From NCBI GenBank assembly GCA_015067765.1, contig SVLV01000002.1, positions 62,001 to 126,000 on the forward strand: 64,000 nt of DNA, written 5' to 3'. This DNA is from Oscillospiraceae bacterium (GTDB taxonomy: Bacteria > Bacillota > Clostridia > Oscillospirales > Oscillospiraceae). The notes beneath the pieces were generated by a model. That model made no database searches, was not told where the DNA came from, and was given only the letters and a program-made list of their open reading frames with translations. This document shows, one piece after another, positions 13,745-30,245 of the stretch; position 1 is the first letter of the stretch, and every line of letters starts with the position of its first letter. Both the position numbers and the translations under genes were made by a program.

Positions 13745-16700
13745 ATGGCAAAGAGAACTGACATCAAAAAGATCATGATCATCGGCTCCGGCCCCATCGT
13801 TATCGGTCAGGCTGCGGAGTTCGACTATGCAGGCACCCAGGCCTGCCTGGCACTGAAGGAAGAGGGCTATGAGGTGGTTCTGGTGAACTCCAACCCCGCC
13901 ACCATCATGACCGATACCAGCATTGCGGACAAGGTCTATATGGAGCCTCTGACGCTGGAGTATGTGGCCCGTATCCTGCGCCACGAGCGTCCCGACGCCA
14001 TCATTCCCGGCATCGGCGGCCAGACCGGTCTGAACCTGGCCATGCAGCTGGAGGCTAAGGGTGTTTTGAAGGAGTGCCGCGTGGAGCTGCTGGGTACCCC
14101 CAGCGCCAGCATTGAGCGCGCTGAGGACCGTGAGCTGTTCAAAGAACTGTGCCAGGAGATCGGTGAGCCGGTCATCCCCTCCGAGATCACCTATAATCTG
14201 GACGAGGCCATCCGTGCTGCTGAGGAGATCGGCTATCCCGTGGTGCTGCGCCCGGCCTTTACGCTGGGCGGTACCGGCGGTGGCTTTGCTTACAACCGTG
14301 AGGAACTGATCGAGGTCGGTACCAATGCCTTCCGTCTGTCTCCCGTGCATCAGGTGCTGATCGAAAAGAGCGTGAAGGGCTATAAGGAGATCGAGTTCGA
14401 GGTGATGCGCGACGGCAACGACCATGCCATCACCATCTGCGGCATGGAAAATATCGATCCTGTGGGTGTCCACACCGGCGACTCCATTGTGGTGGCCCCC
14501 ATCATGACCCTCAATGAGCACGATCTGAAGATGCTCAACGACAGCGCCATCAAGATCATCCGTGCCCTGAAGATCGAGGGCGGCTGTAACGTGCAGTTTG
14601 CACTCAATCCCACCACCTCCGAGTACTTCCTTATTGAGGTCAATCCCCGCGTCTCCCGCTCCTCCGCACTGGCTTCCAAGGCATCCGGCTATCCCATCGC
14701 CCGTGTGACGGCCAAGATCGCCGTTGGTATGAGCCTGGAGGAGATCTCTATTGCCAATACCAATGCCGCCTTTGAGCCCCGCCTGGACTATGTGGTGGCC
14801 AAGCTGCCCCGCTTCCCCTTTGATAAGTTCGCTGCCGCCAGCAACCTGCTGGGTACCCAGATGAAGGCCACCGGCGAGGTCATGGGCATCGGTAATACGC
14901 TGGAGGAGTGCCTGCTGAAGGCAGTGCGCTCCCTGGAAATCGGTGTGTGCCATTTCCATATGCCCAAGTTTGATCAGAAGACCAAGGAGGAACTGATGGA
15001 GTATATCTCCCAGTTCCGCGACGATACCATCTATGCAGTGGCCCAGCTGATGCGCATGGGCGTTTCTGTGGAGGAACTGCATAAGATCACCGCCATCACC
15101 CCATTCTTCCTGGAGTCCATCCAGAAGATCATCCGCTTTGAGGATGTGGTCCGTGCCAATCCCGGCGATCTGGAGACGCTGCGTGAGGCCAAGAAGATGG
15201 GCTTCTCTGATCCCTTCATTGCCAAGCTCTGGAACACTACCGAGGCAATGGTCTACGGTATGCGTAAGGAGAATCAGCTGTTCCCCGCCTTCTGCATGGT
15301 GGATACCTGCCATACCGGTGCCTATATCCCTTACTTCTACTCCAGCTACAGCGGTGAGAATCAGTCCATCCGCACCGAGAAGGAGAAGAAGGTGGTGCTG
15401 GGCGCAGGTCCCATCCGTATCGGTCAGGGTGTGGAGTTCGACTACTCCACCGTCCATGCCGTGCAGACCATCAAGAAGGCCGGCTATGAGTCCATCATCA
15501 TCAACAACAATCCCGAGACCGTTTCTACCGACTACACCACCGCCGATAAGCTGTACTTTGAGCCTCTGACTCCCGAGGATGTCAGCAACGTGCTGTGGTT
15601 TGAGCAGTGCGATGAGGTGATCGCCTCTCTGGGCGGCCAGACGGCCATCAATTTGGCAGCACCGCTGATGAATCGCGGTGCCAAGATCATCGGTACTGAT
15701 GTGGCCGCCATTGACCGCGCCGAGAACCGCGATGCCTTTGAGAAGCTGCTGAGCTCTCTGAATATTCCCCAGCCCAAGGGCACTGCCGTGACCACTCTGG
15801 AAGATGGCCTGAAGGCCGCTGAGCAGATCGGTTATCCTGTGCTGGTGCGTCCCAGCTTCGTGCTGGGTGGCCGCGCTATGGAGATCGTGTCCAACGAGGA
15901 TATGCTGCGCCACTATCTGAAGAATGCTGTAGAGATCGATGCCGATAAGCCCGTGCTGGTGGATAAGTACATCTCCGGCCGCGAGGTGGAGGTGGATGCC
16001 ATCTGCGATGGCAGCAATGTCTTCGTGCCCGGTATCATGGAGCTGGTCGAGCGTACCGGTGTCCACTCCGGTGACTCCATCAGTGTCTATCCCTCCTTCA
16101 GCATCTCCGACAAGGTGAAGGGCACCATCCTGACCTATGCCAAGAAGCTGGGTCTGGGCATTGGCATCGTGGGCCTGTATAACATTCAGTTCATCGTGGA
16201 CGCCAATGATGATGTCTATATCATCGAGGTGAACCCCCGTTCTTCCCGTACCGTACCCTTCCTGTCCAAGGTCACCGGCTACTCTTTGGCGGATATTGCC
16301 ACGGAAGTGATCCTGGGCAGAAGCCTGAAGGAGCAGGGTATCTTCGATCTGTATCCGGAGGAGAAGAAGCGTTGGTATGTAAAGACCCCCGTGTTCTCCT
16401 TCGCCAAGATCCGCGGTCTGGATACCTATCTGTCCCCCGAGATGAAGTCCACCGGTGAGGCCATCGGTTATGATAAGAAGCTGCACCGCGCCATGTACAA
16501 GGCACTGGATGCGGCCGGTATGCACCTGCAGAACTACGGTACTGTGCTGGTGACTCTGGCAGATGAAGATAAGAAGGAGGCCCTGCCTCTGGTCCGTCGT
16601 TTCTATGACATGGGCTTTAATATTGAGGCCACTGCCGGTACTGCCGCCTTCCTGAAGGAGAACGGTATCCGTACCCGCGTGCGCGGCAAGATCTCCGAAG

Positions 16701-16921
16701 GCAGCGAGGAGATTCTGGAGTCCATCCGTGCCGGCTATGTCAGCTATGTGATCAATACCCGCGGCATCTTCGCCGGCAACCATCTGGCAGACGGTGCTGC
16801 AATCCGCCGCTGCGCTGTGGAAAATGCAGTGACCACGTTTACCTCTCTGGATACGGTCCGTATCGTACTGGACGTGCTGGAGGAGATCACCAACAAGGTC
16901 TCCACCATCGATGCAGAGTAA
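13745..16921 (+). CDS. carB: Carbamoyl-phosphate synthase large subunit
   Basis: 1058 aa; MAKRTDIKKIMIIGSGPIVIGQAAEFDYAGTQAC; duplicated ATP-grasp; C-terminal MGS-like domain. Confidence 0.97.
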   Translation: MAKRTDIKKIMIIGSGPIVIGQAAEFDYAGTQACLALKEEGYEVVLVNSNPATIMTDTSIADKVYMEPLTLEYVARILRHERPDAIIPGIGGQTGLNLAMQLEAKGVLKECRVELLGTPSASIERAEDRELFKELCQEIGEPVIPSEITYNLDEAIRAAEEIGYPVVLRPAFTLGGTGGGFAYNREELIEVGTNAFRLSPVHQVLIEKSVKGYKEIEFEVMRDGNDHAITICGMENIDPVGVHTGDSIVVAPIMTLNEHDLKMLNDSAIKIIRALKIEGGCNVQFALNPTTSEYFLIEVNPRVSRSSALASKASGYPIARVTAKIAVGMSLEEISIANTNAAFEPRLDYVVAKLPRFPFDKFAAASNLLGTQMKATGEVMGIGNTLEECLLKAVRSLEIGVCHFHMPKFDQKTKEELMEYISQFRDDTIYAVAQLMRMGVSVEELHKITAITPFFLESIQKIIRFEDVVRANPGDLETLREAKKMGFSDPFIAKLWNTTEAMVYGMRKENQLFPAFCMVDTCHTGAYIPYFYSSYSGENQSIRTEKEKKVVLGAGPIRIGQGVEFDYSTVHAVQTIKKAGYESIIINNNPETVSTDYTTADKLYFEPLTPEDVSNVLWFEQCDEVIASLGGQTAINLAAPLMNRGAKIIGTDVAAIDRAENRDAFEKLLSSLNIPQPKGTAVTTLEDGLKAAEQIGYPVLVRPSFVLGGRAMEIVSNEDMLRHYLKNAVEIDADKPVLVDKYISGREVEVDAICDGSNVFVPGIMELVERTGVHSGDSISVYPSFSISDKVKGTILTYAKKLGLGIGIVGLYNIQFIVDANDDVYIIEVNPRSSRTVPFLSKVTGYSLADIATEVILGRSLKEQGIFDLYPEEKKRWYVKTPVFSFAKIRGLDTYLSPEMKSTGEAIGYDKKLHRAMYKALDAAGMHLQNYGTVLVTLADEDKKEALPLVRRFYDMGFNIEATAGTAAFLKENGIRTRVRGKISEGSEEILESIRAGYVSYVINTRGIFAGNHLADGAAIRRCAVENAVTTFTSLDTVRIVLDVLEEITNKVSTIDAE

Positions 16922-16931
16922 AGGAGCAGTT

Positions 16932-17666
16932 ATGCAGCAGAGCATTTTTGAGATCTGCGTGAACCGTCCGCTCACGGAAACTACCTGGGAGATGGTGCTT
17001 CGGGGCGATACCTCCGCCATCACCCATCCCGGTCAGTTTATCAACATCAAGCTGGAGGGCTATTATCTGCGCAGACCCATCTCCGTCTGTGACTGGAACG
17101 GGGAGACCGTCACCATCCTGTATAAGATTCTGGGTCATGGCACTGAGGCAATGACCCATATGACTCCCGGCCAGAAGCTGGATATTCTCACAGGTCTCGG
17201 CAACGGCTACGATCCGGAGAAGAGCGGGGATGCACCCCTGCTGGTAGGCGGCGGTGTGGGAATTCCTCCGCTGTACGGTCTGGCCCGCCGCCTGCGTGGA
17301 GAGGGAAAGACTGTCACTGCCGTATTGGGCTACAATACGGCCAGTGAACGGTTCTATGTAGAGAAGTTTGAGGAGTTGGGCGTGTCCGTCCATGTGCTGA
17401 CGGCGGACGGCACTGCCGGCGCAAAGGGACTGGTAACCGACGGTATGGAGCAGGTGGAGGAGTATACCCATCTGTATACCTGTGGTCCGGAGCCTATGCT
17501 GAAGGCGGTGTATGCCCATTGCCGCACCTCCGGCCAGTTCAGCTTTGAAGAACGCATGGGCTGCGGTTTTGGCGCCTGTATGGGCTGCACCTGCAAGACC
17601 AAGTATGGCAATAAGCGCATCTGTAAGGATGGCCCTGTGCTGGAGAAGGAGGAGATCGTATGGTAA
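16932..17666 (+). CDS. pyrK: Dihydroorotate dehydrogenase electron transfer subunit
   Basis: FAD/NAD-binding fold plus C-terminal GCGFGACMGCTCKT 2Fe-2S motif; RBS aaggag at 16921. Confidence 0.93.
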   Translation: MQQSIFEICVNRPLTETTWEMVLRGDTSAITHPGQFINIKLEGYYLRRPISVCDWNGETVTILYKILGHGTEAMTHMTPGQKLDILTGLGNGYDPEKSGDAPLLVGGGVGIPPLYGLARRLRGEGKTVTAVLGYNTASERFYVEKFEELGVSVHVLTADGTAGAKGLVTDGMEQVEEYTHLYTCGPEPMLKAVYAHCRTSGQFSFEERMGCGFGACMGCTCKTKYGNKRICKDGPVLEKEEIVW

Positions 17667-18577
17667 ATACCAAGGTCAATCTCTGCGGGATCCAGCTGGA
17701 TAATCCGGTGATCCCTGCCAGCGGTACATTTGGCTACGGTTATGAGTTTGCGGAACTCTATGATATCAATTGCCTGGGTACTTTCTCCTTCAAGGGGACC
17801 ACGGCCCAGCCCCGTTATGGAAATCCCACGCCCCGTATTGCTGAGTATGCAGGCGGCCTGCTGAACGCGGTTGGTCTGCAGAATCCCGGCGTGGATGCCG
17901 TAATAGCAGAGGAACTGCCCAAGCTGGCAAAGTGCTTTCATAAGCCGGTGATGGCCAATATCAGCGGATTCTCCGTGGAGGAATATGTGGAGGTCTGCCG
18001 CAAGCTGGATGCCTGCCAGCAGGTGGGTTGGCTGGAGGTCAATATCTCCTGCCCCAATGTCCATGGCGGCGGCATGAGTTTTGGTACGGACCCCAAGGCT
18101 GCGGCTGAGGTGACCAAGGCAGTGCGTGCCGTGACCACCAAACCGCTGATTCTGAAGCTGTCCCCCAATGTGACGGATATCGTCACTATCGCCAAAGCCT
18201 GTGAGGATGCCGGCGCCGATGCCGTCAGCCTGATCAATACGGTGATGGGCATGCGCATTGATCTAAGGCGCCGTGCACCCCTGCTGCACAATACTACCGG
18301 CGGTATGTCCGGTCCCGGCATCTTCCCGCTGGCAGTTCGTATGGTCTACCAGGTTTCCAGTGCAGTGAAGATCCCTGTGGTGGGTATGGGCGGCGTTTCC
18401 AGCGCAGAGGATGTGCTGGAACTGATGATGGCCGGTGCTACGGCTGTAGAGGTGGGTGCTGCCAATCTGGTGGAGCCCTATGCCTGCAAGAAGATTTTGG
18501 AGGATCTTCCTGTTGTGATGGAACACTACGGAATCTGCGATATCAACGAGATCATAGGAGGAGTACATCATGGGTAA
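17660..18577 (+). CDS. pyrD: Dihydroorotate dehydrogenase (class 1B catalytic subunit)
   Basis: [22 protein letters not shown]...[11 protein letters not shown]. Confidence 0.95.
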
Positions 18578-19268
18578 GGATGTTATCATCGCACTGGATT
18601 TTGAAAACAGAGAGAAGACGCTCTCTTTCCTGGACCGTTTCACCGAGGAGAAGCCCTTTGTGAAGATCGGCATGGAACTGTACTATGCAGAGGGACCCGC
18701 AATCGTGCGGGAGATCAAGGCCCGGGGCCACAAGATCTTCTTGGATCTGAAGCTGCACGATATTCCCAATACGGTGAAGAAGTCCATGGCTGTTCTGTCC
18801 GGCCTGGATATTGATATGTGCAATCTCCATGCTGCCGGCACCAAAGCCATGATGGAGGCCGCACTGGAGGGGCTGACCCGTCCCGACGGCACCCGTCCCA
18901 TGCTGATTGCCGTTACGCAGCTGACCTCCACCAGCCAGGAACGGATGCAGGAGGATCTGCTGATCCGCGAGCCGCTGGATCAGGTGGTCATGCACTATGC
19001 CAAGTGCGCTGCCGATGCCGGTCTGGACGGTGTTGTCTGCTCCCCGCTGGAGGCAGGAAAGGTCCATGAGACTTGTGGCAGCAGCTTTGTGACCGTGACC
19101 CCCGGTGTCCGCTTTGCCGGCGGCGATGTGGGGGATCAGGTTCGTATCACTACCCCCGAAAAGGCTAAGGAGATCGGCTCTGACTACATCGTGGTAGGTC
19201 GTCCCATTACTGCCAGCGAGGATCCCGTGGCTGCCTATCGCCGCTGCGTGGCAGAGTTTGTCGGCTAA
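18570..19268 (+). CDS. pyrF: Orotidine 5'-phosphate decarboxylase
   Basis: [14 protein letters not shown]...[35 protein letters not shown]. Confidence 0.95.
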
Positions 19269-19271
19269 ACC

Positions 19272-19925
19272 ATGGGCTGGGATACCATACTGTTTGACCT
19301 GGATGGCACGCTGACGGATTCCCACAGAAGTATTACCGAATCTACTGCCTATGCCCTCAGCTGTTATGGCATCCATGTGGAGGACACTTCCACCCTGAAG
19401 GATTTTATCGGACCGCCATTGCAGGATAGTTTTATGACCCGTTATGGCTTTTCTGCCCAGCAGGCCATTGAGGCGATCGGTAAGTTTCGGGAATATTTCA
19501 ACCGGGAAGGCTGGCAAAAGGATGTGCCCTATGCCGGGATTGCCCAGGTGCTGAAGCGGCTGCAGGCGGCGGGAAAGACCCTGCTGATCGCCACCTCCAA
19601 ACCGGAGGTCTATGCCATCCGGATTTTGGAGTATCTTGACTTGCTGCAGTATTTTTCTCTGGTCTGCGGTGCGCCTCTTGCAGAGCACACCGGTGCCCGA
19701 AAGGATCTGATCGTTGCCCGCGCACTGCGAGAGAGCGGTGTTGCGGATCTGAGCCGTGCGGTGATGGTGGGAGACCGGAGTCACGATGTGATTGGTGGCC
19801 AAAAGGCGGGCCTTGAGACCATTGGAGTCCTCTACGGCTATGGCAGCCGGGAAGAGCTGCTGGAAGCCGGTGCCATGACCTTGGCCCAGGATCCGGAAGA
19901 ACTGTGTGCAATCCTTCTGTCCTGA
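19272..19925 (+). CDS. HAD-superfamily phosphatase (phosphoglycolate phosphatase-like) inside the pyr operon
   Basis: ILFDLDGTLTDS; MVGDRSHDVIGG. Confidence 0.85.
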   Translation: MGWDTILFDLDGTLTDSHRSITESTAYALSCYGIHVEDTSTLKDFIGPPLQDSFMTRYGFSAQQAIEAIGKFREYFNREGWQKDVPYAGIAQVLKRLQAAGKTLLIATSKPEVYAIRILEYLDLLQYFSLVCGAPLAEHTGARKDLIVARALRESGVADLSRAVMVGDRSHDVIGGQKAGLETIGVLYGYGSREELLEAGAMTLAQDPEELCAILLS

Positions 19926-19956
19926 ACAGAAATTTCAACATAAAGGAGATCGAGTT

Positions 19957-20601
19957 ATGAAAGAGATGCAGACCCTGATCGCAAAAGATCTGTTGTCTAT
20001 CCGTGCTGTTTTCTTCCGTCCGGAAGAACCTTTCACCTGGGCCAGCGGCATCAAAAGCCCTGTATACTGTGACAACCGTTTGACCTTGACAGCTCCCAAA
20101 GTACGCGACGATGTGGAGAATGCTCTGGCAGAAACCATCCGCCGCGAGTACCCTGATGTGGAGGTGCTGATGGGTACTTCCACTGCCGGTATTGCCCATG
20201 CTGCAATCGTCGGCCACATCATGGGCCTGCCCATGGGTTATGTGCGCTCCGGCAGCAAGGACCACGGCCGTCAGAACCAGATCGAGGGTAAACTGGAGAA
20301 AGGGCAGAAGGTCGTGGTGGTGGAGGACCTGATCTCCACCGGCGGTAGTGTCATTGAGGTCGTCAATGTGCTGCGCGCTGCAGGCGCCGAGGTGCTTGGT
20401 GTTGTGAGCATCTTCACCTATGGCATGAAGAAGGGCCTGGAGCGTCTGGCTGAGGCAGAGGTGAAGAATATCAGCCTCACCAATTTTGACATCATCGCTC
20501 AGGTGGCGGCTGATGAGAATTACATCAAGACTGAGGACATCGCCCGCCTGATCGCCTTCCGAAACAATCCTTCTGATGAGAGCTGGATTGGAGGCAAGTA
20601 A
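19957..20601 (+). CDS. pyrE: Orotate phosphoribosyltransferase
   Basis: [33 protein letters not shown] at 19957 after taaaggag (track start 19906). Confidence 0.94.
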
Positions 20602-20602
20602 A

Positions 20603-21517
20603 ATGAGATGCCTGATCGACATTCTGGATCTGTCCACGCAGGAGATCGATGAACTGGTAGCCGTTGCTACCGATATCATCGCCAACCCCTCCGCCTACGC
20701 CCATAAGTGCGATGGCAAGATCCTGGCAACCCTGTTTTTTGAGCCCTCCACCCGTACCCGCCTCAGCTTTGAGTCTGCCATGCTGAGTCTGGGCGGACAG
20801 ACCCTGGGCTTTTCCGAGGCCAACAGCAGTTCTGCCGCTAAGGGCGAGAGTGTTGCCGATACGGTGCGCACGGTCAGCTGCTACAGTGACATCATTGCTA
20901 TGCGCCATCCCAAGGAGGGTGCTCCGCTGGTGGCATCCATGAAGTCCGGCGTGCCCATCATCAATGCCGGTGACGGCGGTCACAATCATCCCACCCAGAC
21001 GCTGGCGGATTTGCTGACCATCCACCATGAGAAAGGCCGTTTTGAGAATTTGACGGTCGGCTTCTGCGGCGATCTGAAGTTTGGCCGTACGGTCCACTCC
21101 CTCATCAACGCCCTGAGCCGCTATGCCGGAATTCGTGTGGTGCTGATCTCCCCAGAGGAACTGAAACTGCCCGACTATGTGAAGAAGGAAGCGCTGCTGA
21201 AAAATCAGATCCCCTATGAGGAGACCACCGATCTGGAAGAGGCAATGCCTCAGCTGGATATCCTCTACATGACCCGCGTGCAGAGAGAGCGTTTCTTCAA
21301 CGAAGAGGATTATCTGCGTCTGAAGGACAGCTATATCCTGACCCCCGATAAGCTGAAGGCCGCCAAAGCGGATCTGAGCATCCTGCATCCGCTGCCCCGC
21401 GTCAACGAGATCTCGATAGCGGTGGATGATGATCCCAGAGCCTGCTACTTCAAGCAGGTCCGCTACGGAAGATTCATTCGCATGGCTTTGATTTTGAAGC
21501 TGTTGGGCATTCAGTAA
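20603..21517 (+). CDS. pyrB: Aspartate carbamoyltransferase catalytic subunit
   Basis: [30 protein letters not shown] at 20603 after ggaggcaag. Confidence 0.95.
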
Positions 21518-21530
21518 GGGAGGCGAGAGT

Positions 21531-21950
21531 ATGGTAATTGATGCCATTAAAAACGGTATTGTGATCGATCATATTACGGCGGGCAAGGCCATGGACCTGT
21601 ATCAAATCCTCGGTCTGGACCAGCTGGAATGCACGGTGGCGATCCTGAAGAATGTTCCCAGCAAGAAGCATGGCCGCAAGGACATCATCAAGATCGACAG
21701 TGTGCTGGATCTGGATTGGGATGTTCTGGGTTATGTGGATCCCAACATCACCGTGAATATCATCCGGGAAAACCAGCGGGTGGAAAAGCGGAAGCTGAAG
21801 CTGCCGGAGCGGCTGGTGGATGTGATCCGCTGCAAGAATCCCCGCTGCATCACCTCGGTGGAGCAGGAACTCCAGCAGGTGTTCCTGTTGGCAGATGAAC
21901 AGGAACGTACCTATCGCTGCCTCTACTGTGAGGCAGAAGCCGGAAAATAA
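21531..21950 (+). CDS. pyrI: Aspartate carbamoyltransferase regulatory subunit
   Basis: IKNGIVIDHITAGKAMDLYQIL; C-terminal CKNPRCI...YRCLYCE zinc site. Confidence 0.94.
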   Translation: MVIDAIKNGIVIDHITAGKAMDLYQILGLDQLECTVAILKNVPSKKHGRKDIIKIDSVLDLDWDVLGYVDPNITVNIIRENQRVEKRKLKLPERLVDVIRCKNPRCITSVEQELQQVFLLADEQERTYRCLYCEAEAGK

Positions 21951-22004: not shown

Positions 22005-22439
22005 TTATTTGCTGAGATACTCTTTCAGGTAGAGGATCGCCTGACGATAGCCCTCAAGACCGAGTCCCATATAGGTCTTGATGCAGGCCATCCCGGCATA
22101 GGAAATCTGGCGGAATGCCTCACGGGCCTTCACATCGGAGATATGAACTTCCACAGCGGGCAGAGCCACGGCCTTCAATGCATCCAGAATGGCGATGCTG
22201 GTGTGGGTATAAGCAGCGGGATTGATCACGATGCCGTCCACACAGCCGTAAGCAGCCTGGATCCGGTCCACGATGACCCCCTCGTGGTTGGACTGAAACA
22301 ACTCCACCTCGATCCCCTCAGCCTGACAGGTTTCCCGTACCAGCTTCTGCAGAGTCTCGTAGTTTTCGTGGCCATAGATGGCGGGCTCACGCAGGCCCAG
22401 CATATTGATGTTGGGGCCATTGATGACAAGCAGTTTCAT
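22005..22439 (-). CDS. aroQ: 3-dehydroquinate dehydratase, type II
   Basis: MKLLVINGPNINMLGLREPAIYG; INPAAYTHTS; VEVHISD. Confidence 0.95.
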   Translation of the reverse strand: MKLLVINGPNINMLGLREPAIYGHENYETLQKLVRETCQAEGIEVELFQSNHEGVIVDRIQAAYGCVDGIVINPAAYTHTSIAILDALKAVALPAVEVHISDVKAREAFRQISYAGMACIKTYMGLGLEGYRQAILYLKEYLSK

Positions 22440-23659
22440 TTCAGCACCTCCAGAATCTGTTGGATCGTGTTCTCCAACTTGCCGTTGTTGTCCACGATGT
22501 AGTCAGCAAACCGGGCATAGTGGGGCGCGCGAATGGCGGCCATTTGATCCAGATCACTGCCTTGAGACAGGGGACGACCCTTACGGGCCAATTTCTTTGT
22601 GTCACATTTGATTTGGATGATGACGCCGTTTTGATGGAGCAGGGGATAATTTTCCTCCCGCATCACGCAGCCACCGCCGGTGGAAAGAATGGCGCCGGAC
22701 CCTTTGCCCAACTGAGCCAGAGCTTTGGTTTCCCACTGACGGAAAGCCTCTTCCCCCTGTGTGCGAAAGATCTCCGGAATGGACATGCCGGCCTGCTCCT
22801 CAACCCACGCATCCGAGTCAAAGACCGGGCGGTTGAGCACCTCTGCCAATTTGCGGGCAACCGTGCTCTTGCCACTGCCGGGCATTCCCACCAGAACGAT
22901 GTTTTCCATCTGGCGGCGCAGCATTCGTTCGATCCTTTGAATCTCAGTGGGAGGGATCATGCGGCCGGTAAACTGTTCGCTGCTTCCGGCGGCCTGCGCC
23001 ACCAGCATATACAGACCGCTGCAGCAGGGAATCTTCAGGGCTTCTGCCTCCAGGATCAGCGCAGTGCGGGCAGGGTTATAGACCACATCCAAAACACCTT
23101 CGCAGTGGGGGAAGAGGGAGAGGGAGAGGGGGGCAACTCCGGTATTGGGATACATTCCCACCGGTGTGGCATTGACGATGATCTGTGCATCGGCATGGCG
23201 ATCCAGATAGTCATAGTTGTCCGGGCCGCTGCGGGAGATCATCACCACGGCAGATGCCCCCATCTGCTGCAAACAGGTTCGGACCGTCAGAGCGGCACCA
23301 CCGGTACCAAGCACCAGTGCCTTTTTCCCGGAGATCGCAATGCCGCTTTGCTGCACCATGGCAGTGAAGCCCATGGCATCGGTGTTGTCTCCATAGAGAG
23401 TACCATCCGATCGGCGAACGATGGTATTGACGCTGCCCATCCGTTGAGCCGTGGGAGACAGCTCCTTGCAGTAAGGGATAACCGCCTTTTTGTAGGGAAT
23501 CGTTACATTCAGACCATCGAAGCTTTGGGAGGTAAGAAACGAACCCAGTTCGTCAGGGGACTTCTCATAGAGCAGGTATTCATAGTTGCCCAACTCATGA
23601 TGGATGCGGGGGGAATAGCTATGTCCCAGCTTTTCACCCAAGAGACCGCAGCGCAGCAT
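22436..23659 (-). CDS. Fused shikimate dehydrogenase - shikimate kinase
   Basis: N-term GLLGEKLGHSYSPRIH...NVTIPYK...NTDAMGF; C-term ENIVLVGMPGSGKSTVARKLAE...STGGGCV. Confidence 0.93.
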   Translation of the reverse strand: MLRCGLLGEKLGHSYSPRIHHELGNYEYLLYEKSPDELGSFLTSQSFDGLNVTIPYKKAVIPYCKELSPTAQRMGSVNTIVRRSDGTLYGDNTDAMGFTAMVQQSGIAISGKKALVLGTGGAALTVRTCLQQMGASAVVMISRSGPDNYDYLDRHADAQIIVNATPVGMYPNTGVAPLSLSLFPHCEGVLDVVYNPARTALILEAEALKIPCCSGLYMLVAQAAGSSEQFTGRMIPPTEIQRIERMLRRQMENIVLVGMPGSGKSTVARKLAEVLNRPVFDSDAWVEEQAGMSIPEIFRTQGEEAFRQWETKALAQLGKGSGAILSTGGGCVMREENYPLLHQNGVIIQIKCDTKKLARKGRPLSQGSDLDQMAAIRAPHYARFADYIVDNNGKLENTIQQILEVLK

Positions 23660-24801
23660 CAGATCACCTCACTGTAACTGCCGAGATAGGAGAATTCTTC
23701 GGACAACTCAGGAAGTTCACCCATCAGCTGAATGAACTGAGGGGAGTAGACAGAGGTATCCAGATCGAAATAGAACATAAACTCAAAGTTCCGCTCCGGA
23801 ATGGGCCGGCTCTCCAACTTGTTGAGGTTGATGCCCAGAGCATAGAACCGGGAGAGCACCTTATACAGGGAGCCGGGACGGTGGGGGACGATCATCATCA
23901 GGCTGGTGCAGTTGGCGCCGGGATAGATCTCCAGGTCCTTGGAGATGCAGATGAAGCGGGTGAAGTTATTACCCTGATCCTGCACCGAGGAGGCAAGGCA
24001 CTTCAGACCATAGAGTTCAATACAGGAGCGGGAGGACAGGGCGGCCACATCCTTGCGGTCAGACTCGGCCACCATCTGTGCAGCCATGGCCGTATTTTCG
24101 CAGCAGGTGACCTTCACATTGGGCATACTGCGCAGGAATTCCGTGCACTGGCTGATGGCCTGCTCATGAGAATAGATCTCGCGGATCTGAGACAGTTCCG
24201 TTCCGGGCTTAGCCAGCAGGTTGTGGTCGATCTTGATACGAACACTGCGGACAATGCGGAAGTTGTGCTTGCGCATCAGGTCATACACCATATTCACAGA
24301 GCCGGCGGTGCTGTTTTCCAGCGGGATCAGACCATAACGGCACAGGCCCTTTTCCACGGCACTGAACACGGCATCAAAGGAGGAGAAGTACAGGAGATTG
24401 GGCATCCGGAACAGCTTGTCGCAGGCAATCTGAGAGTAAGCACCTTCCACACCCTGGCAGGCCACCGTAGCCTCCACAGGGAACAGGGGAGGCGTATGGG
24501 CAATGGCCTCCTCGATCTGCTGGGCAATTGCAGTGCGGCCGCCCAAAACGCGGTGCTGGTTACTGCGGCTCAGTTCAAACAGCAGTGAGTAGAGGGAAAC
24601 GGCATATTCCTTGTAGGCATCAGGGGTCATCGTATAGATGGATTGGAGCTTTTCCCGTTCCCGGATAACATCCATCACGGGCAGCTGATTTTTCCGCTTA
24701 TACTCGGCAATTTGAACGGCGGTATCCATGCGCTGGGCGAACAGCCTGACCAGCTCCTGATCGATGGAATCCATCTGCAGTCTCAATTCTTTCAGATCCA
24801 T
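23659..24801 (-). CDS. pheA: Bifunctional chorismate mutase / prephenate dehydratase (P-protein) with ACT domain
   Basis: N-term MDLKELRLQMDSIDQELVRLFAQRM; VACQGVEGAYSQIA; C-term HRPGSLYKVLSRFYALGINLNKLESRP. Confidence 0.94.
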   Translation of the reverse strand: MDLKELRLQMDSIDQELVRLFAQRMDTAVQIAEYKRKNQLPVMDVIREREKLQSIYTMTPDAYKEYAVSLYSLLFELSRSNQHRVLGGRTAIAQQIEEAIAHTPPLFPVEATVACQGVEGAYSQIACDKLFRMPNLLYFSSFDAVFSAVEKGLCRYGLIPLENSTAGSVNMVYDLMRKHNFRIVRSVRIKIDHNLLAKPGTELSQIREIYSHEQAISQCTEFLRSMPNVKVTCCENTAMAAQMVAESDRKDVAALSSRSCIELYGLKCLASSVQDQGNNFTRFICISKDLEIYPGANCTSLMMIVPHRPGSLYKVLSRFYALGINLNKLESRPIPERNFEFMFYFDLDTSVYSPQFIQLMGELPELSEEFSYLGSYSEVI

Positions 24802-24810
24802 ATGTTAACC

Positions 24811-25872
24811 TCAACCTTTCATATTTTCCAGGATAGCGTCATACAGGGCAATGGCGGCAGCAGCCTCCATACAGGGGACCGCCCGCGGCACAATACAGGG
24901 ATCATGCCGACCGCCGATGGTAAGGGTGGTGGGTGTCATAGTAGACAGATCCACCGTGTTTTGCTCCTTCGAAATGGAGGGTGTGGGCTTGATAGCGGTA
25001 CGGAATACAATGGGCATGCCATTGCTGATACCGCCCAGAATACCGCCGCAGTGGTTGGTGACGGTGGCTACCTGCCCGTCCTGCAGATAGAAGGCATCAT
25101 TGCTTTCGCTGCCACGCATCTGCGCTACCGCAAAGCCTGCACCGAACTCAATGCCCTTAACGGCGGGGATCCCGAATACAATGGATGCGATTCGATTCTC
25201 CATACCGTCAAACATAGGATCACCCAGGCCGAGAGGGGGATTGCACACCATGCACTCAATTACGCCGCCCAAAGAGTCGTTCTGACTTTTGGCCTCGGCG
25301 ATGGCCAGACGCATCTGTTCACCAATGGCATCATCTACTACAGGGAACTCCTTTTCAGCAGTGGAGGCCAGCAGAGGAGCGTTATCGCAAATTCCGCCGA
25401 TGGAAACGATGCGGGAGAGAATGGTAACACCCATCTGCTCCAACAACTGCACGCAGATGCCTCCGGCGATGCAAAGGGGGGCTGTGAGTCGCCCGGAAAA
25501 TTGACCGCCGCCGGCCGCATCGAATGCGTCACCGTATTTAACACGGGCGGTATAGTCCGCATGTCCGGGCCGGGGAGTATTGCGAAGAGATTCGTAATCC
25601 TGAGACCGTGTGTTGGTGTTGCGGATGATCGCAGTGATGGGTGCACCGCAGGTTACATTTCCAACAAGACCGGAGAGGAATTCCGGGAGATCGGCTTCCT
25701 TGCGGGGGGTAGAATAGGTATTTCGGCCGGGTGCGCGACGCTGAAGAAACTGCTGCAGCTTCTCCATATCAATGGCAAAACCGGCGGGGATTCCCTCCAG
25801 TGTCATGCCGATGGCGGGGGAGTGGGATTGGCCGAAAATCGTCAGCTTCAAACAGTTGCCGTAGTGATTCAT
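24811..25872 (-). CDS. aroC: Chorismate synthase
   Basis: LKLTIFGQSHSPAIGMTLEGIPAG; RPGHADYTARVKYGD. Confidence 0.95.
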   Translation of the reverse strand: MNHYGNCLKLTIFGQSHSPAIGMTLEGIPAGFAIDMEKLQQFLQRRAPGRNTYSTPRKEADLPEFLSGLVGNVTCGAPITAIIRNTNTRSQDYESLRNTPRPGHADYTARVKYGDAFDAAGGGQFSGRLTAPLCIAGGICVQLLEQMGVTILSRIVSIGGICDNAPLLASTAEKEFPVVDDAIGEQMRLAIAEAKSQNDSLGGVIECMVCNPPLGLGDPMFDGMENRIASIVFGIPAVKGIEFGAGFAVAQMRGSESNDAFYLQDGQVATVTNHCGGILGGISNGMPIVFRTAIKPTPSISKEQNTVDLSTMTPTTLTIGGRHDPCIVPRAVPCMEAAAAIALYDAILENMKG

Positions 25873-27128
25873 AGGCTGTCTTCTCCTTTCAGACCCTCAA
25901 GATCTTCCCAGAAACGGGGGTAGGATTTTTCGGTGCATTGACTGTCTTCAATGACAACCGGCTCCCGGCACAATCCTGCTGCAACGGCAGCAGACATAGC
26001 AATGCGATGATCATTCCAGGAGGATACGGTGCCGCCCTGCAGATAAGGCTTGCCGTGGATGATCAGAGCGTCCGCCAATTCGTGGATCTCTGCACCAAGG
26101 GTGGTCAGCATTTGCGTGGTACTGGCCAAGCGGTCCGACTCCTTCAGCCGAAGTCGGCCGGCATTTTGGATATAGGTAGTTCCGTCCGCGCCGGCAGCTA
26201 CCACCGACAGGACAGGGATCAGATCAGGAATGGGAGCGGCATCGATCTCAATGCCGTGGAGTGCCCCATGTTTGACGGTGACACCGTCCTCATTCTCAAT
26301 CACCTGGGCGCCAAAGCGCTGCAGAATTTCAAGAATCTGTCGATCTCCCTGAGCCGAATGGGGGGACAAGCCCTTAACAGTAATGCCTTCCCGGGACAGG
26401 GCGCCGCTGCAGAGAAAAAATGCAGCATTGGAATAATCCCCTTCCACCGGGCAGTTTCGCGGCAGCTGATAGCTTTGATTGCCGGGAATGTGATAGGTGT
26501 TCTCTGATTTCTCGAATCGGATCCCGGCCATACGCAGTGCATCTTCGGTCATCGTAATGTATGCCTGAGATTCTACCGTGCCGGTTACCGTCAGACGACT
26601 GTCGCCATTCAAAAGCGGCAGCGCCAACAGAAGTCCGGAGATATACTGGGAGGAAATGTTGCCGGGAATGGAGAAATCACCGGCACACAATGTTCCGCCT
26701 GCGTGAAGCAGGTCGGCCTCCTGACGGATATGCATGCCGTGAAGACACAGCAATTCATCCAAAGGGGCAAGAGGGCGCTGGGGGAGGCGACCCTCCATGT
26801 GGAAAGTGACCTCACGGTTCAAAGCACCGATCACCGGCAGCAGAAAACGGAGGGTAGAGCCGCTTTCCCCACAGAAAAGCTGGCAGAGGCTATCCTTATT
26901 GGCGATGGGAGTAACCTCCAAAATACCGGAGGAAGATTCGCGGATGGAAGCGCCCAGTCCATTAAGACATTCCATAGTAGCGGTAATGTCCCGGGACAGC
27001 CCGTCGCAGGGGATGGTGACAGGGGTATGGCCCAGCGCAGCGCAGATCAGCAGGCGGTGTGCCTGGGATTTGGAGGCCGGGATTCTGATCAGCCCGGTGC
27101 GTGTGCCGGGCAGTACGGTTCTTGTCAT
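25869..27128 (-). CDS. aroA: 3-phosphoshikimate 1-carboxyvinyltransferase (EPSP synthase)
   Basis: IRIPASKSQAHRLLICAAL; GESGSTLRFLLPV; start at ATG 27128 overlaps aroB stop (ATGA); track start 27191. Confidence 0.94.
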   Translation of the reverse strand: MTRTVLPGTRTGLIRIPASKSQAHRLLICAALGHTPVTIPCDGLSRDITATMECLNGLGASIRESSSGILEVTPIANKDSLCQLFCGESGSTLRFLLPVIGALNREVTFHMEGRLPQRPLAPLDELLCLHGMHIRQEADLLHAGGTLCAGDFSIPGNISSQYISGLLLALPLLNGDSRLTVTGTVESQAYITMTEDALRMAGIRFEKSENTYHIPGNQSYQLPRNCPVEGDYSNAAFFLCSGALSREGITVKGLSPHSAQGDRQILEILQRFGAQVIENEDGVTVKHGALHGIEIDAAPIPDLIPVLSVVAAGADGTTYIQNAGRLRLKESDRLASTTQMLTTLGAEIHELADALIIHGKPYLQGGTVSSWNDHRIAMSAAVAAGLCREPVVIEDSQCTEKSYPRFWEDLEGLKGEDSL

Positions 27129-28183
27129 AGCGAGCACCCATCCTTGATCCACTCTGCCAGTTCTGCAGAGGGAACGGGCAGGATATCGCATCGACCGATT
27201 TCGCGGGGAACGATCAGGTGGATGGTTCCGGCAGAAATCTTCTTATCGGACAAACTTGCCTGGAACAGATCATTCAAAGGATACTCCGTGGCAACCGGCA
27301 GGTGATAAGCCTCCAAAAGGGAAATCAGTTGCATGAGAACCTCTTCATCACACAGACCACGCTTTACTGCAGCGCGGGTGATGGCTGCCATGCCAATGGA
27401 AACAGCATATCCGTGGGTCAGAGTAAACTGGCTGCAGCGCTCAATGGCATGGCCGATGGAATGGCCCAAATTCAGAAGCTGGCGATCTCCATGGTCGAAT
27501 TCATCACGGCATACGATATCCCGCTTCATCTCCACGCAGGTGGTGATGACCTCCTCCAACTGTGTTCTTACAGAATGCTCAGACAACTGCTGGAAAAATG
27601 CTGCATTGCCCAACATACCGTATTTGATGACCTCCGCACAACCGCTCCCGAATTCTTCTGCAGGGAGGGTGTGGAGCAGCTGCGGATCACAGATGACCAG
27701 TACAGGCTGGCAGAAGCACCCTACCAGGTTCTTTCCGGCATCCAGATCCACGGCGGTCTTTCCACCAACAGAGGAGTCCACAGCGGCCAGCAGTGTAGTG
27801 GGGATCTGCACAAAGGGGATTCCTCGCAGATAGGTGGCAGCGGCAAAGCCTGCCATGTCGCCGGTGACACCGCCGCCCAGCGCCACCAGAATATCGCCGC
27901 GGCTTACGCGGTGCGTGGCCATGCAATTGAGAATATCGGCATAGGTGGTCAGATTCTTGGAGGATTCTCCTGCAGGGAAGGTGCAGCATACCACCTGAAA
28001 GCCGGCTGCTTCTAATGATTCTACTGTGCGTTTGCCGTAAAGTGAAAATACTTGATCGTCCGCTACAAGAGCAGCGGTACAGGGTTTATGGACCTGTGCG
28101 ATCAGCTGTCCTGTCCGATCCAGGCAACCGGACTCAATATGGACATCATAAGGGTGTGCGGTAGGAACATGTACAGTCGTCAT
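27125..28183 (-). CDS. aroB: 3-dehydroquinate synthase
   Basis: ALGGGVTGDMAGFAAATYLRGIPFVQIPTTLLAAVDSSVGGKTAVD. Confidence 0.96.
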   Translation of the reverse strand: MTTVHVPTAHPYDVHIESGCLDRTGQLIAQVHKPCTAALVADDQVFSLYGKRTVESLEAAGFQVVCCTFPAGESSKNLTTYADILNCMATHRVSRGDILVALGGGVTGDMAGFAAATYLRGIPFVQIPTTLLAAVDSSVGGKTAVDLDAGKNLVGCFCQPVLVICDPQLLHTLPAEEFGSGCAEVIKYGMLGNAAFFQQLSEHSVRTQLEEVITTCVEMKRDIVCRDEFDHGDRQLLNLGHSIGHAIERCSQFTLTHGYAVSIGMAAITRAAVKRGLCDEEVLMQLISLLEAYHLPVATEYPLNDLFQASLSDKKISAGTIHLIVPREIGRCDILPVPSAELAEWIKDGCSL

Positions 28184-29013
28184 CTTCCATCAACCTCTTC
28201 CTTGCGTTTTTTTCCGTCCTCCAGAAGCGTGGTCAGCTGCTCCAGATCGTCCTGAGAAATGGCCTCACGATACTGCTGCAGAGCGGCGATGAAGGTATCC
28301 AACTCCGAGAGCATATAGTCCTTGTTTTCCAAAAATAGCTGAGCCCACATGGGGGAATTGAGCCAGGCCACACGGGTCAGATCCCGGTAACTGCCGGCAG
28401 AGAATCCCTTCCGCTTGCTGGCAGTCGGACTCTTGATGAAAGCATTGGAGACCACATGGGCCATCTGTGAGGTGAATGCAATGATCTCATCATGACTGTC
28501 TGCAGTTGTTACAGAGATCCGGCCAAAGCGGGCAGGGGCCAGCAAGGTCTTTACACGATCCAAAAGGGTGATATCATCGAATGTCGGAGGCACAATGACC
28601 ATTGGAGCACCCTTAAACATGGTGGGCGTGGCATACTTAAAACCGGATTGGTGAATGCCTGCCATGGGATGACCGCCGATATAGGTGAAATGATGTTCCT
28701 GAGCCAACTGAAAGCCCAGAGCACAGATGCTTCGCTTGGTGCCGCAGCAATCGATTACCACAGGTTTTGCTCCAAAGAAGGGGGCCATTTCTTGCAGATA
28801 CCTGCGTGCAGGCTCGGGATTGACGGCAATCAGGATAATATCGCATTCTGCGGCAGTTTCCATCGTCAGTTCCCCGGATACTGTGCCGCTGACCATGGCA
28901 AACTGCAGGATGGAACGGTCCGTATCATGGGCGAGGACCGTGTGTCCTGCTTCACTGTAAGCCTTGGCGAAGGAGCCGCCGATAAGGCCCAGCCCAACGA
29001 TTCCGGCGATCAT
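28180..29013 (-). CDS. tyrA: Prephenate dehydrogenase
   Basis: IAGIVGLGLIGGSFAKAY; GGHPMAGIHQSGF. Confidence 0.92.
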   Translation of the reverse strand: MIAGIVGLGLIGGSFAKAYSEAGHTVLAHDTDRSILQFAMVSGTVSGELTMETAAECDIILIAVNPEPARRYLQEMAPFFGAKPVVIDCCGTKRSICALGFQLAQEHHFTYIGGHPMAGIHQSGFKYATPTMFKGAPMVIVPPTFDDITLLDRVKTLLAPARFGRISVTTADSHDEIIAFTSQMAHVVSNAFIKSPTASKRKGFSAGSYRDLTRVAWLNSPMWAQLFLENKDYMLSELDTFIAALQQYREAISQDDLEQLTTLLEDGKKRKEEVDGR

Positions 29014-30014
29014 GCGTTGATAACCTCGCGAATCTGCCGTACCTTGTGTGCAAGGACCGCGTACTCTTCAGGACGCAGGGACTGGGCACCATCGCACAGG
29101 GCATGCATGGGATCGTTGTGCACCTCAATGATCAGACCGTCTGCACCGCAGGCGGCGCCGGAGAGGGCCATGGGGGGCACCAGACGAGCAATGCCGGTTG
29201 CATGGCTGGGGTCGACGATGATGGGAAGGTGGGTCAGTTCGCGCAGCATGGGAACGGCGGCCAGATCCAGCGTGTTTCTGGTGTAGTCATCAAAAGTACG
29301 GATACCACGCTCACAGAGGATGACCTGCTCATTGCCGCCGGCCATGATGTATTCGGCGCTCATGAGCAATTCCTTCAGAGTGTTGGCCAGACCGCGCTTA
29401 AGCAGAATGGGCTTGCGTAGACGGCCCAGTTCCTTCAGCAGGTCGAAGTTCTGCATATTGCGGGCGCCCACCTGGATGATATCCACATCTTCAAAGAGAG
29501 ACAGGTGCTTTATGCCCATGATCTCGGTAACGATGGGAAGACCGGTCTCCTGACGGGCAATTTTCAGCAGCTCGATGCCGTCGGCCTGCATGCCCTGGAA
29601 ATCATAGGGGGAGGTGCGGGGCTTGAAAGCACCGCCGCGCAGGATATTGGCGCCGGCTTCCTTCACAGATTTCGCAATCGAGACGATCTGCTCCTCGGAT
29701 TCGACAGAGCAGGGGCCAGCGATCATACAGAAATTGCCGGAACCAATTTTTACATCACCGACTTCAACGATGGTATCCTCAGGATGGAACTTGCGGTTGC
29801 AGCACTTGAAAGGCTCGCTGACGCGCTTTACGGAATCAACAATCTCCAGGCTGGCGATCAGGTCGATATCCACATGGCTGGTGTCGCCAATCAGACCGAG
29901 CACCGTTTGAAAGCTACCATCAGAGATGTGAACACCCAGATGGAGAGTCTTCAGCCAGTTGATCAGCTGCTCCTTTTTTTCTTCCTTAACACCATGTTTG
30001 AGAATAACGATCAT
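29010..30014 (-). CDS. aroF: 3-deoxy-7-phosphoheptulonate synthase (DAHP synthase, AroF type)
   Basis: N-terminal ferredoxin-like extension then MIAGPCSVESEEQI, LRGGAFKPRTSPY, PIIVDPSHATG. Confidence 0.95.
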   Translation of the reverse strand: MIVILKHGVKEEKKEQLINWLKTLHLGVHISDGSFQTVLGLIGDTSHVDIDLIASLEIVDSVKRVSEPFKCCNRKFHPEDTIVEVGDVKIGSGNFCMIAGPCSVESEEQIVSIAKSVKEAGANILRGGAFKPRTSPYDFQGMQADGIELLKIARQETGLPIVTEIMGIKHLSLFEDVDIIQVGARNMQNFDLLKELGRLRKPILLKRGLANTLKELLMSAEYIMAGGNEQVILCERGIRTFDDYTRNTLDLAAVPMLRELTHLPIIVDPSHATGIARLVPPMALSGAACGADGLIIEVHNDPMHALCDGAQSLRPEEYAVLAHKVRQIREVINA

Positions 30015-30047: not shown

Positions 30048-30085
30048 TAAAAATAAAATGCGCCACAGGATAACCTGCGGCGCAT
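30048..30085 (-). terminator. Leader terminator of the aromatic operon attenuator
   Basis: Minus strand ATGCGCCGCAGG-TTAT-CCTGTGGCGCAT followed by TTTATTTTT, 44 nt upstream of aroF. Confidence 0.88.
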
Positions 30086-30128
30086 CTGAATGCTTTGATA
30101 AGCCCCTTTAACGCATCACAAATTACCC

Positions 30129-30185
30129 TTACCACGAAAATGCAGTAAAGTAAAAGTAATAGGCGTTAAACAGGAAGTTGGTCAT
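30129..30185 (-). CDS. Attenuator leader peptide MTNFLFNAYYFYFTAFSW
   Basis: 18-codon ORF, 9/18 aromatic residues (5 F, 3 Y, 1 W); RBS CTGGAG 7 nt upstream; consensus promoter upstream, terminator hairpin downstream, then aroF. Confidence 0.88.
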   Translation of the reverse strand: MTNFLFNAYYFYFTAFSW

Positions 30186-30216
30186 ATCAATACTCCAGAG
30201 AAAAATTATTGTAATG

Positions 30217-30245
30217 ATTATATGCAACTTTGTCGGCAAAGTCAA
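30217..30245 (-). promoter_or_regulatory. Sigma-A promoter of the aromatic operon
   Basis: TTGACT-N17-TATAAT on the minus strand. Confidence 0.88.

Follow-up and report, generated by a model that had tools for sequence, protein, structure and literature searches.

Organization of the aro operon and its leader

The window (the whole stretch of 64,000 nucleotides of Oscillospiraceae DNA that was analysed) carries on its minus strand eight overlapping or tightly spaced genes in the order aroF-tyrA-aroB-aroA-aroC-pheA-aroE/aroK fusion-aroQ, preceded by a leader with a promoter, a short open reading frame (ORF) and an intrinsic terminator. The source genome is a 1.54-Mb draft that is 79% complete, and its close relatives are mostly Oscillospiraceae metagenome assemblies. 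The promoter boxes, both Shine-Dalgarno (SD) sequences, the leader ORF, the terminator arms, the U-rich tract and the aroF start codon were read from the sequence, the leader ORF also having homologous leaders in relatives, while region 1 was defined by the 1:2 pairing and its compensatory changes and the genes by the family models given with them:

30240-30245, minus strand: -35 box TTGACT of the leader promoter
30217-30222, minus strand: -10 box TATAAT, spacer 17 bp
30193-30196, minus strand: SD sequence GGAG of the leader ORF
30129-30185, minus strand: leader ORF of 18 codons, MTNFLFNAYYFYFTAFSW and stop
30145-30161, minus strand: region 1, UAUUACUUUUACUUUAC, the Tyr/Phe codons themselves
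30112-30132, minus strand: region 2, GUAAGGGUAAUUUGUGAUGCG, starting at the leader stop codon
30128-30112, minus strand: 5′ strand of the antiterminator, inside region 2
30068-30084, minus strand: region 3, UGCGCCGCAGGUUAUCC, terminator 5′ arm and loop, also the 3′ strand of the antiterminator
30058-30085, minus strand: intrinsic terminator hairpin (3:4), 12 bp, loop UUAU
30085-30074 and 30069-30058, minus strand: the two arms of the terminator
30049-30057, minus strand: U-rich tract UUUAUUUUU
30028-30023, minus strand: SD sequence of aroF
30014, minus strand: ATG start codon of aroF
29010-30014, minus strand: aroF, DAHP synthase (NF006421, TIGR01361)
28180-29013, minus strand: tyrA, prephenate dehydrogenase (family matches under equivalog cut-offs)
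27125-28183, minus strand: aroB (TIGR01357)
25869-27191, minus strand: aroA (TIGR01356)
24811-25872, minus strand: aroC (TIGR00033)
23659-24801, minus strand: pheA, chorismate mutase/prephenate dehydratase (under curated cut-offs)
22436-23659, minus strand: aroE-aroK fusion (profile matches)
22005-22439, minus strand: aroQ, type II dehydroquinase (TIGR01088)

The promoter, ribosome binding site, 18-codon leader, 12-bp terminator with its U-rich tract and aroF all lie where an initial annotation of this DNA had placed them. The short ORF between the promoter and the first gene is translatable, having both an SD sequence and an ATG, and encodes 5 Phe, 3 Tyr and 1 Trp such that 8 of its 18 codons specify Phe or Tyr, with Phe4, Phe6, Tyr9, Tyr10, Phe11, Tyr12 and Phe13 as the predicted sensing codons. 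At congeneric loci (e.g. L003-L006, L019 and L020) TTGAC(A)-N17-TATAWT-like boxes occupy the equivalent position. The leader RNA folds well beyond expectation when compared with dinucleotide shuffles (z = -6.2), with 0 of 200 shuffles folding as well. In the fold of positions 30201-30080 without a ribosome, the SD and start region of the leader pairs with the pre-terminator stretch UAUCAAAGCAUUCAGA, a predicted pairing that could act as a brake on leader translation. At its 3′ end the operon is convergent with a pyrimidine cluster, carB-pyrK-pyrD-pyrF-phosphatase-pyrE-pyrB-pyrI (13745-21950, assigned by inspection).

Conservation and distribution of the leader

In an unbiased test, 80 AroF orthologues of the family were picked by protein similarity only and the 500 bases upstream were read. 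An aromatic (Phe/Tyr-rich) leader ORF with an intrinsic terminator within 120 bases was present at 73 of the 80, the terminator lying between the leader and the first gene. At least five of seven consecutive codons were aromatic, with a terminator downstream, at 71 of the 80 loci as compared with 0.13% of shuffled sequences and 0/80 on the antisense strand. The initial annotation had named the lack of a conserved aromatic-rich leader in relatives as a possible refutation and had regarded a mixed Phe/Tyr sensor over an entire shikimate operon as apparently unusual; the leader is conserved, and within this lineage the arrangement is the rule. AroF homologues of 50-60% identity from the same genus are without the leader. 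Three distant aroF loci of that genus (L007, L008 and L009) have another, terminator-ended leader lacking an aromatic ORF, with CATGGCCTGTAAC...GGCCGGCCACCGCTGTCCGACCTTGCCGCAC common to L007 and L008.

An exact search of GTDB genomes for the core of the leader RNA gave 23 matches, all with a preceding aromatic leader and all located 5′ of aroF or pheA/CM. A covariance model was built from 19 training sequences, mostly from the exact-core search so that its matches lean to that core, and found matches in 129 of 401 family genomes at E<=0.01 and, at E<=0.001, in 46 of the 397 genomes from the order and 22 of the 292 from the class. Leaders of the Trp type were recovered even though absent from the 19 training sequences. 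Ten weak matches (L110, L115, L119, L124, L131, L154, L155, L159, L161 and L162) had no aromatic leader and were rejected as false positives. Clear aroF leaders were found in other families of the class (L246-L250, L253, L255 and L257), and Lachnospiraceae pheA genes have Phe-rich leaders that share the RNA core. As judged by eye, their antiterminator seems to be displaced (GACCGAUGUAAG:CUUACAGCGGUC), and in L030 and L041 both of its strands carry changes.

Individual loci showed further variation. In L002 and L004 some 200 extra bases containing a common GC-rich element (GATTTGAGTGCGTGG...CCGCAC) separate the attenuator from aroF. In one draft genome with 5% contamination (G007), aroF operons occur on three contigs, C1, C29 and C53 (L002, L020 and L019 respectively), and each is preceded by a distinct version of the leader; mixed strains are the probable reason.

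The RNA core is translated in differing frames or located past the stop codon and, being kept irrespective of frame or stop, is conserved as RNA. This bears on the possibility that the product of the leader ORF is itself functional, as a small hydrophobic peptide, with the RNA pairing being secondary, for which the retention of the start codon, SD sequence and aromatic core (ASYYFYFT) in close relatives could be taken to speak. Beyond close relatives, however, aromatic richness is all that is kept, neither sequence nor length being maintained, and both the conservation of the nucleotide core across reading frames and past the stop codon and the way in which leader composition tracks the downstream gene (see below) argue against a peptide function, which is considered very improbable. 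A leader conserved for RNA-based attenuation is the preferred reading.

Alternative pairings of the leader RNA

Pairing statistics were drawn from an alignment of 98 distinct diverse sequences, which had been fitted to the 1:2 and 3:4 helices but not to 2:3, making the antiterminator the cleaner test. For the 3:4 terminator 94% of cells were paired and all 12 pairs showed two-sided changes, and for the 1:2 helices, in which region 1 is the codon run UAUUACUUUUACUUUAC, 86% of cells were paired, with compensatory changes. For the 2:3 antiterminator 79.9% of cells were paired compared with 33-55% when it was slid, and its covariation exceeded that of all 500 shuffles. Compensatory changes across related genomes, the check that had been proposed for the initial annotation, therefore support all three helices and with them the mutually exclusive 1:2, 2:3 and 3:4 logic. 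Duplex tests independent of the alignment gave p<=0.05 in 58-60% of loci and, as they are only moderately decisive singly, the weight rests on the alignment and on the switch tests described below.

Congeneric loci have in common TAAGGGTAATTTGTGATGC 3′ of the leader and, within the arm and loop of the terminator, GCGGCACAGGTTATCC, and these two stretches pair. In the window the antiterminator is formed by GGGUAAUUUGUGAUGCG with UGCGCCGCAGGUUAUCC, 16 of 17 positions being paired at about -20 kcal/mol. The loop stretch UUAUCC of the terminator belongs to the antiterminator, which explains why the loop is conserved. By using the 5′ arm of the terminator the antiterminator excludes it, and it likewise cannot coexist with the 1:2 pairing, which takes in or borders on the regulatory codons. 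Region 1 had originally been placed at codons 6-8 (UUUAACGC, 30170-30163), the perfect complementarity of which to GCGUUAAA (30114-30107) was confirmed; as a conserved region 1 this stretch was rejected, because its pairing, at 52% of cells, did not rise above that of shuffles, and the helix is an extension found in the window and some close relatives. Likewise, the proposed GUGAUGCGU:AUGCGCCGC pairing holds at 8 of 9 positions but fell short of the full extent of the antiterminator, which is longer and takes in the loop.

Attenuation might alternatively act via aroF translation or Rho and not via the intrinsic terminator, as the leader could in principle influence downstream aroF initiation too. 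The conservation of the terminator and U-rich tract, with two-sided changes in every pair of the hairpin, and the location of the aroF SD sequence outside the alternative structures both count against such a route, making it highly unlikely, and read-out by the intrinsic terminator is preferred. A conserved UGU|G has its U 9 bases past the 1:2 hairpin in 87 of 99 aligned members, a spacing partly fixed by the covariance model; around it, G or A is usual at position -10, U at -3, and G at both -2 and +1. This context resembles the elemental-pause consensus, and a polymerase pause at this point, keeping ribosome and polymerase in step, is offered as a suggestion only.

Ribosome position and the predicted choice of structure

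Folding of truncated transcripts, comprising the RNA up to the terminator loop with the ribosome footprint masked codon by codon, gave a predicted antiterminator probability for the window of 0.00 without a ribosome and 0.96-0.98 when any of codons 4-13 occupied the A site, returning to 0.00 at Phe16, Ser17, Trp18 and the stop codon. With a transcript four bases longer the probability for codons 4-13 was 0.84-0.98. In these truncated transcripts a ribosome mask at codons 4-13 switched the fold to the antiterminator. The E. coli trpL leader showed the same folding behaviour by the same procedure, with 0.05 both without a ribosome and at stop as compared with 0.64 and 0.74 at two Trp codons. Averaged over 108 family members, antiterminator occupancy fell from 0.70 at aromatic codons to 0.49 with no ribosome and 0.46 with the ribosome at stop, the aromatic-codon stall exceeding the no-ribosome state in 86/108 members (p 7e-13, paired test) and the stop state in 90/108 (p 7e-14, paired test). 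In several members the no-ribosome or stop state leaves an upstream pairing of the terminator arm possible in this simple model.

With the full leader folded at equilibrium under ribosome masks, the terminator prevailed at every position and no switch was seen. As equilibrium always favours the terminator, the decision must be kinetic and made during transcription, which is likewise assumed for trp. By computation, the position of the stall would select the structure.

Amino acids predicted to be sensed

The codons of the leader differ with the gene that follows. The 80 aroF leaders contain on average 3.9 Phe, 3.5 Tyr and 0.1 Trp, with Trp present in 8/80, and the pheA/CM leaders 5.1 Phe and 0.7 Tyr with Trp in 0/7. 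By comparison, the leaders of trpB-like genes (TIGR01415 type), such as MRKHSGIAFWWFWFRFTD, contain Trp in 12/12 cases, two of them assigned from partial sequence. A TrpX-like binding protein is preceded by the leader MPFVNFVVAYYYYYFVTR and genes of the sodium/solute symporter family by mixed leaders such as MKTLKTAANRYWFWFYFTM. As far as sequences can tell, leader codon content tracks the controlled gene, and the leader of the window has an excess of codons for the end products of its operon. The W/Y/F-rich leader attenuators of the sodium/solute symporter family (L093, L100, L103 and L116) suggest that these symporters may move aromatic amino acids.

Sensing of Trp, for which the leader has a single codon, is contradicted on three counts. 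In the folding a ribosome stalled at Phe16 or Trp18 hides region 2, so that no antiterminator forms; Trp is rare in aroF leaders; and no chorismate-binding (anthranilate-synthase-type) gene was found in the 79% complete genome of the window, so that the aromatic amino acids expected as products are Phe and Tyr, in keeping with a Phe/Tyr sensor. With Trp18 positioned where stalling would terminate, it is Phe and Tyr that would be sensed by this leader and not Trp.

In the same genome a T-box with an apparent UGG specifier (L244, 1062-1308 of contig C48) lies 5′ of a TrpB-like gene, while in relatives a Trp-bearing leader peptide of the attenuator family precedes the same TrpB-like gene. In these arrangements the T-box and the leader attenuator coexist and substitute for each other between relatives.

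Comparison with known regulatory systems

Textbooks treat leader-peptide attenuation as a device of proteobacteria and give T-boxes and TRAP as the regulators of Firmicutes. The trp and pheA attenuators of E. coli, the pheL leader being of the same kind as trpL, resemble the clostridial leader in being rich in the sensed amino acid, in the 1:2, 2:3 and 3:4 alternatives, and in that a stall leads to antitermination and the stop codon or lack of translation to termination. They differ in that the present system is clostridial, places a mixed Phe/Tyr sensor over a joint shikimate, tyrA and pheA operon, and has regulatory codons that are region 1 itself.

The T-box (RF00230), present elsewhere in the genome of the window, is alike in responding to charged tRNA with read-out by a terminator, but binds tRNA directly and has no leader peptide. 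None of the Rfam families matched the aroF leader; RF00230 in particular gave no match either at the gathering score or at E up to 10, and the same was true of the Rfam amino-acid leader families (Phe_leader, Trp_leader etc.), while no Pfam or NCBIfam model matched the leader peptides, for which, being so short, the filters are weak. It could be argued that it is a protein or ligand that governs the terminator (a TRAP-like protein, a repressor, or an undescribed riboswitch or T-box variant) with the aromatic codons being incidental, given the textbook place of T-boxes and TRAP in aromatic regulation in Firmicutes and the 12 T-box matches in the genome of the window. Against this, matches of the leader at E up to 10 were chance-level and mostly to snoRNA models, the T-box motif was found in none of the 80 aroF upstream regions, and the aromatic codon enrichment is far above chance and gene-specific, such that control of this kind deserves very little credence compared with control by the translating ribosome.

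Leader peptides have been reported from other Firmicutes. Histidine leader-peptide attenuators are found in bacilli (PMC2965389) and in the B. cereus group, Peptostreptococcaceae and Erysipelotrichales, with 17 genomes in a 2022 survey (PMC9413887). These likewise represent Gram-positive leader-peptide attenuation in place of T-boxes but concern histidine genes in other lineages, and 17 genomes compare with most sampled members of a whole family here. The uORFC-13-1 motif, with 24 representatives and at least one Phe codon, lies 5′ of aroF, was reported only from Acholeplasma and environmental sequences, and has been proposed to act by attenuation (PMC8632094). As judged from the published description and not from sequence, it is like the clostridial family in having a uORF with Phe codon(s), a promoter and an RBS directly before a terminator and aroF, and differs from it in the reported hosts and in the at least one Phe codon of its description. 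A literature search, in which subscription journals were little covered, yielded no account of leader-peptide attenuators for clostridial aromatic operons; for Firmicutes the amino-acid leader peptides that it brought up were chiefly those for His and the small aroF motif of Acholeplasma. Systems of this kind are known, while the family and its clostridial distribution are apparently undescribed in the literature covered.

Proposed mechanism and significance

Comparative sequence analysis establishes the leader, an RNA core kept regardless of frame, the three helices and the correspondence between codons and genes; use of the promoter, stalling of the ribosome, termination and readthrough as such, and the possible UGU|G pause are inferred. 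The initial reading of the locus as a classical leader-peptide attenuator over the whole operon is upheld by the conserved leaders, gene-matched codons and exclusive pairings, and control of the aroF-to-aroQ operon by ribosome-mediated transcription attenuation of the classical type, with charged tRNA-Phe and tRNA-Tyr as the signals, is assigned a probability of roughly 0.93.

Transcription would start near 30210 and a ribosome would translate the leader. With ample Phe and Tyr the ribosome would reach the stop codon at the start of region 2 and cover region 2, leaving region 3 to pair with region 4 such that the terminator forms and the operon is off. When Phe- or Tyr-tRNA is scarce the ribosome would stall on the Tyr/Phe codons that constitute region 1, blocking 1:2, and the free region 2 would capture the nascent terminator 5′ arm and loop, giving antitermination with the operon on. 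Without translation 1:2 would form and the terminator would be the default. Transcription-translation coupling is reportedly doubted for some Firmicutes (B. subtilis), which counts against the attenuator reading.

With moderate confidence, it is proposed that a single homologous attenuator family with the core UUUGUG-N-UGC and exchangeable codons (Phe/Tyr, Phe, Trp or mixed) is a main means by which many Clostridia control their aromatic amino-acid genes, taking the place of T-boxes one gene at a time. If true, such a family would mean that coupling in these bacteria is close enough for ribosome-timed decisions, perhaps via a hairpin-assisted pause at the conserved core. The family is ready for a covariance model and is absent from Rfam, its leader codons predict the substrates of orphan transporters, and it provides a natural test case for whether Clostridia couple translation to transcription. 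In a large family of gut Clostridia this attenuator is apparently how the Phe/Tyr pathway is normally controlled, and its use seems to reach other families of the class.
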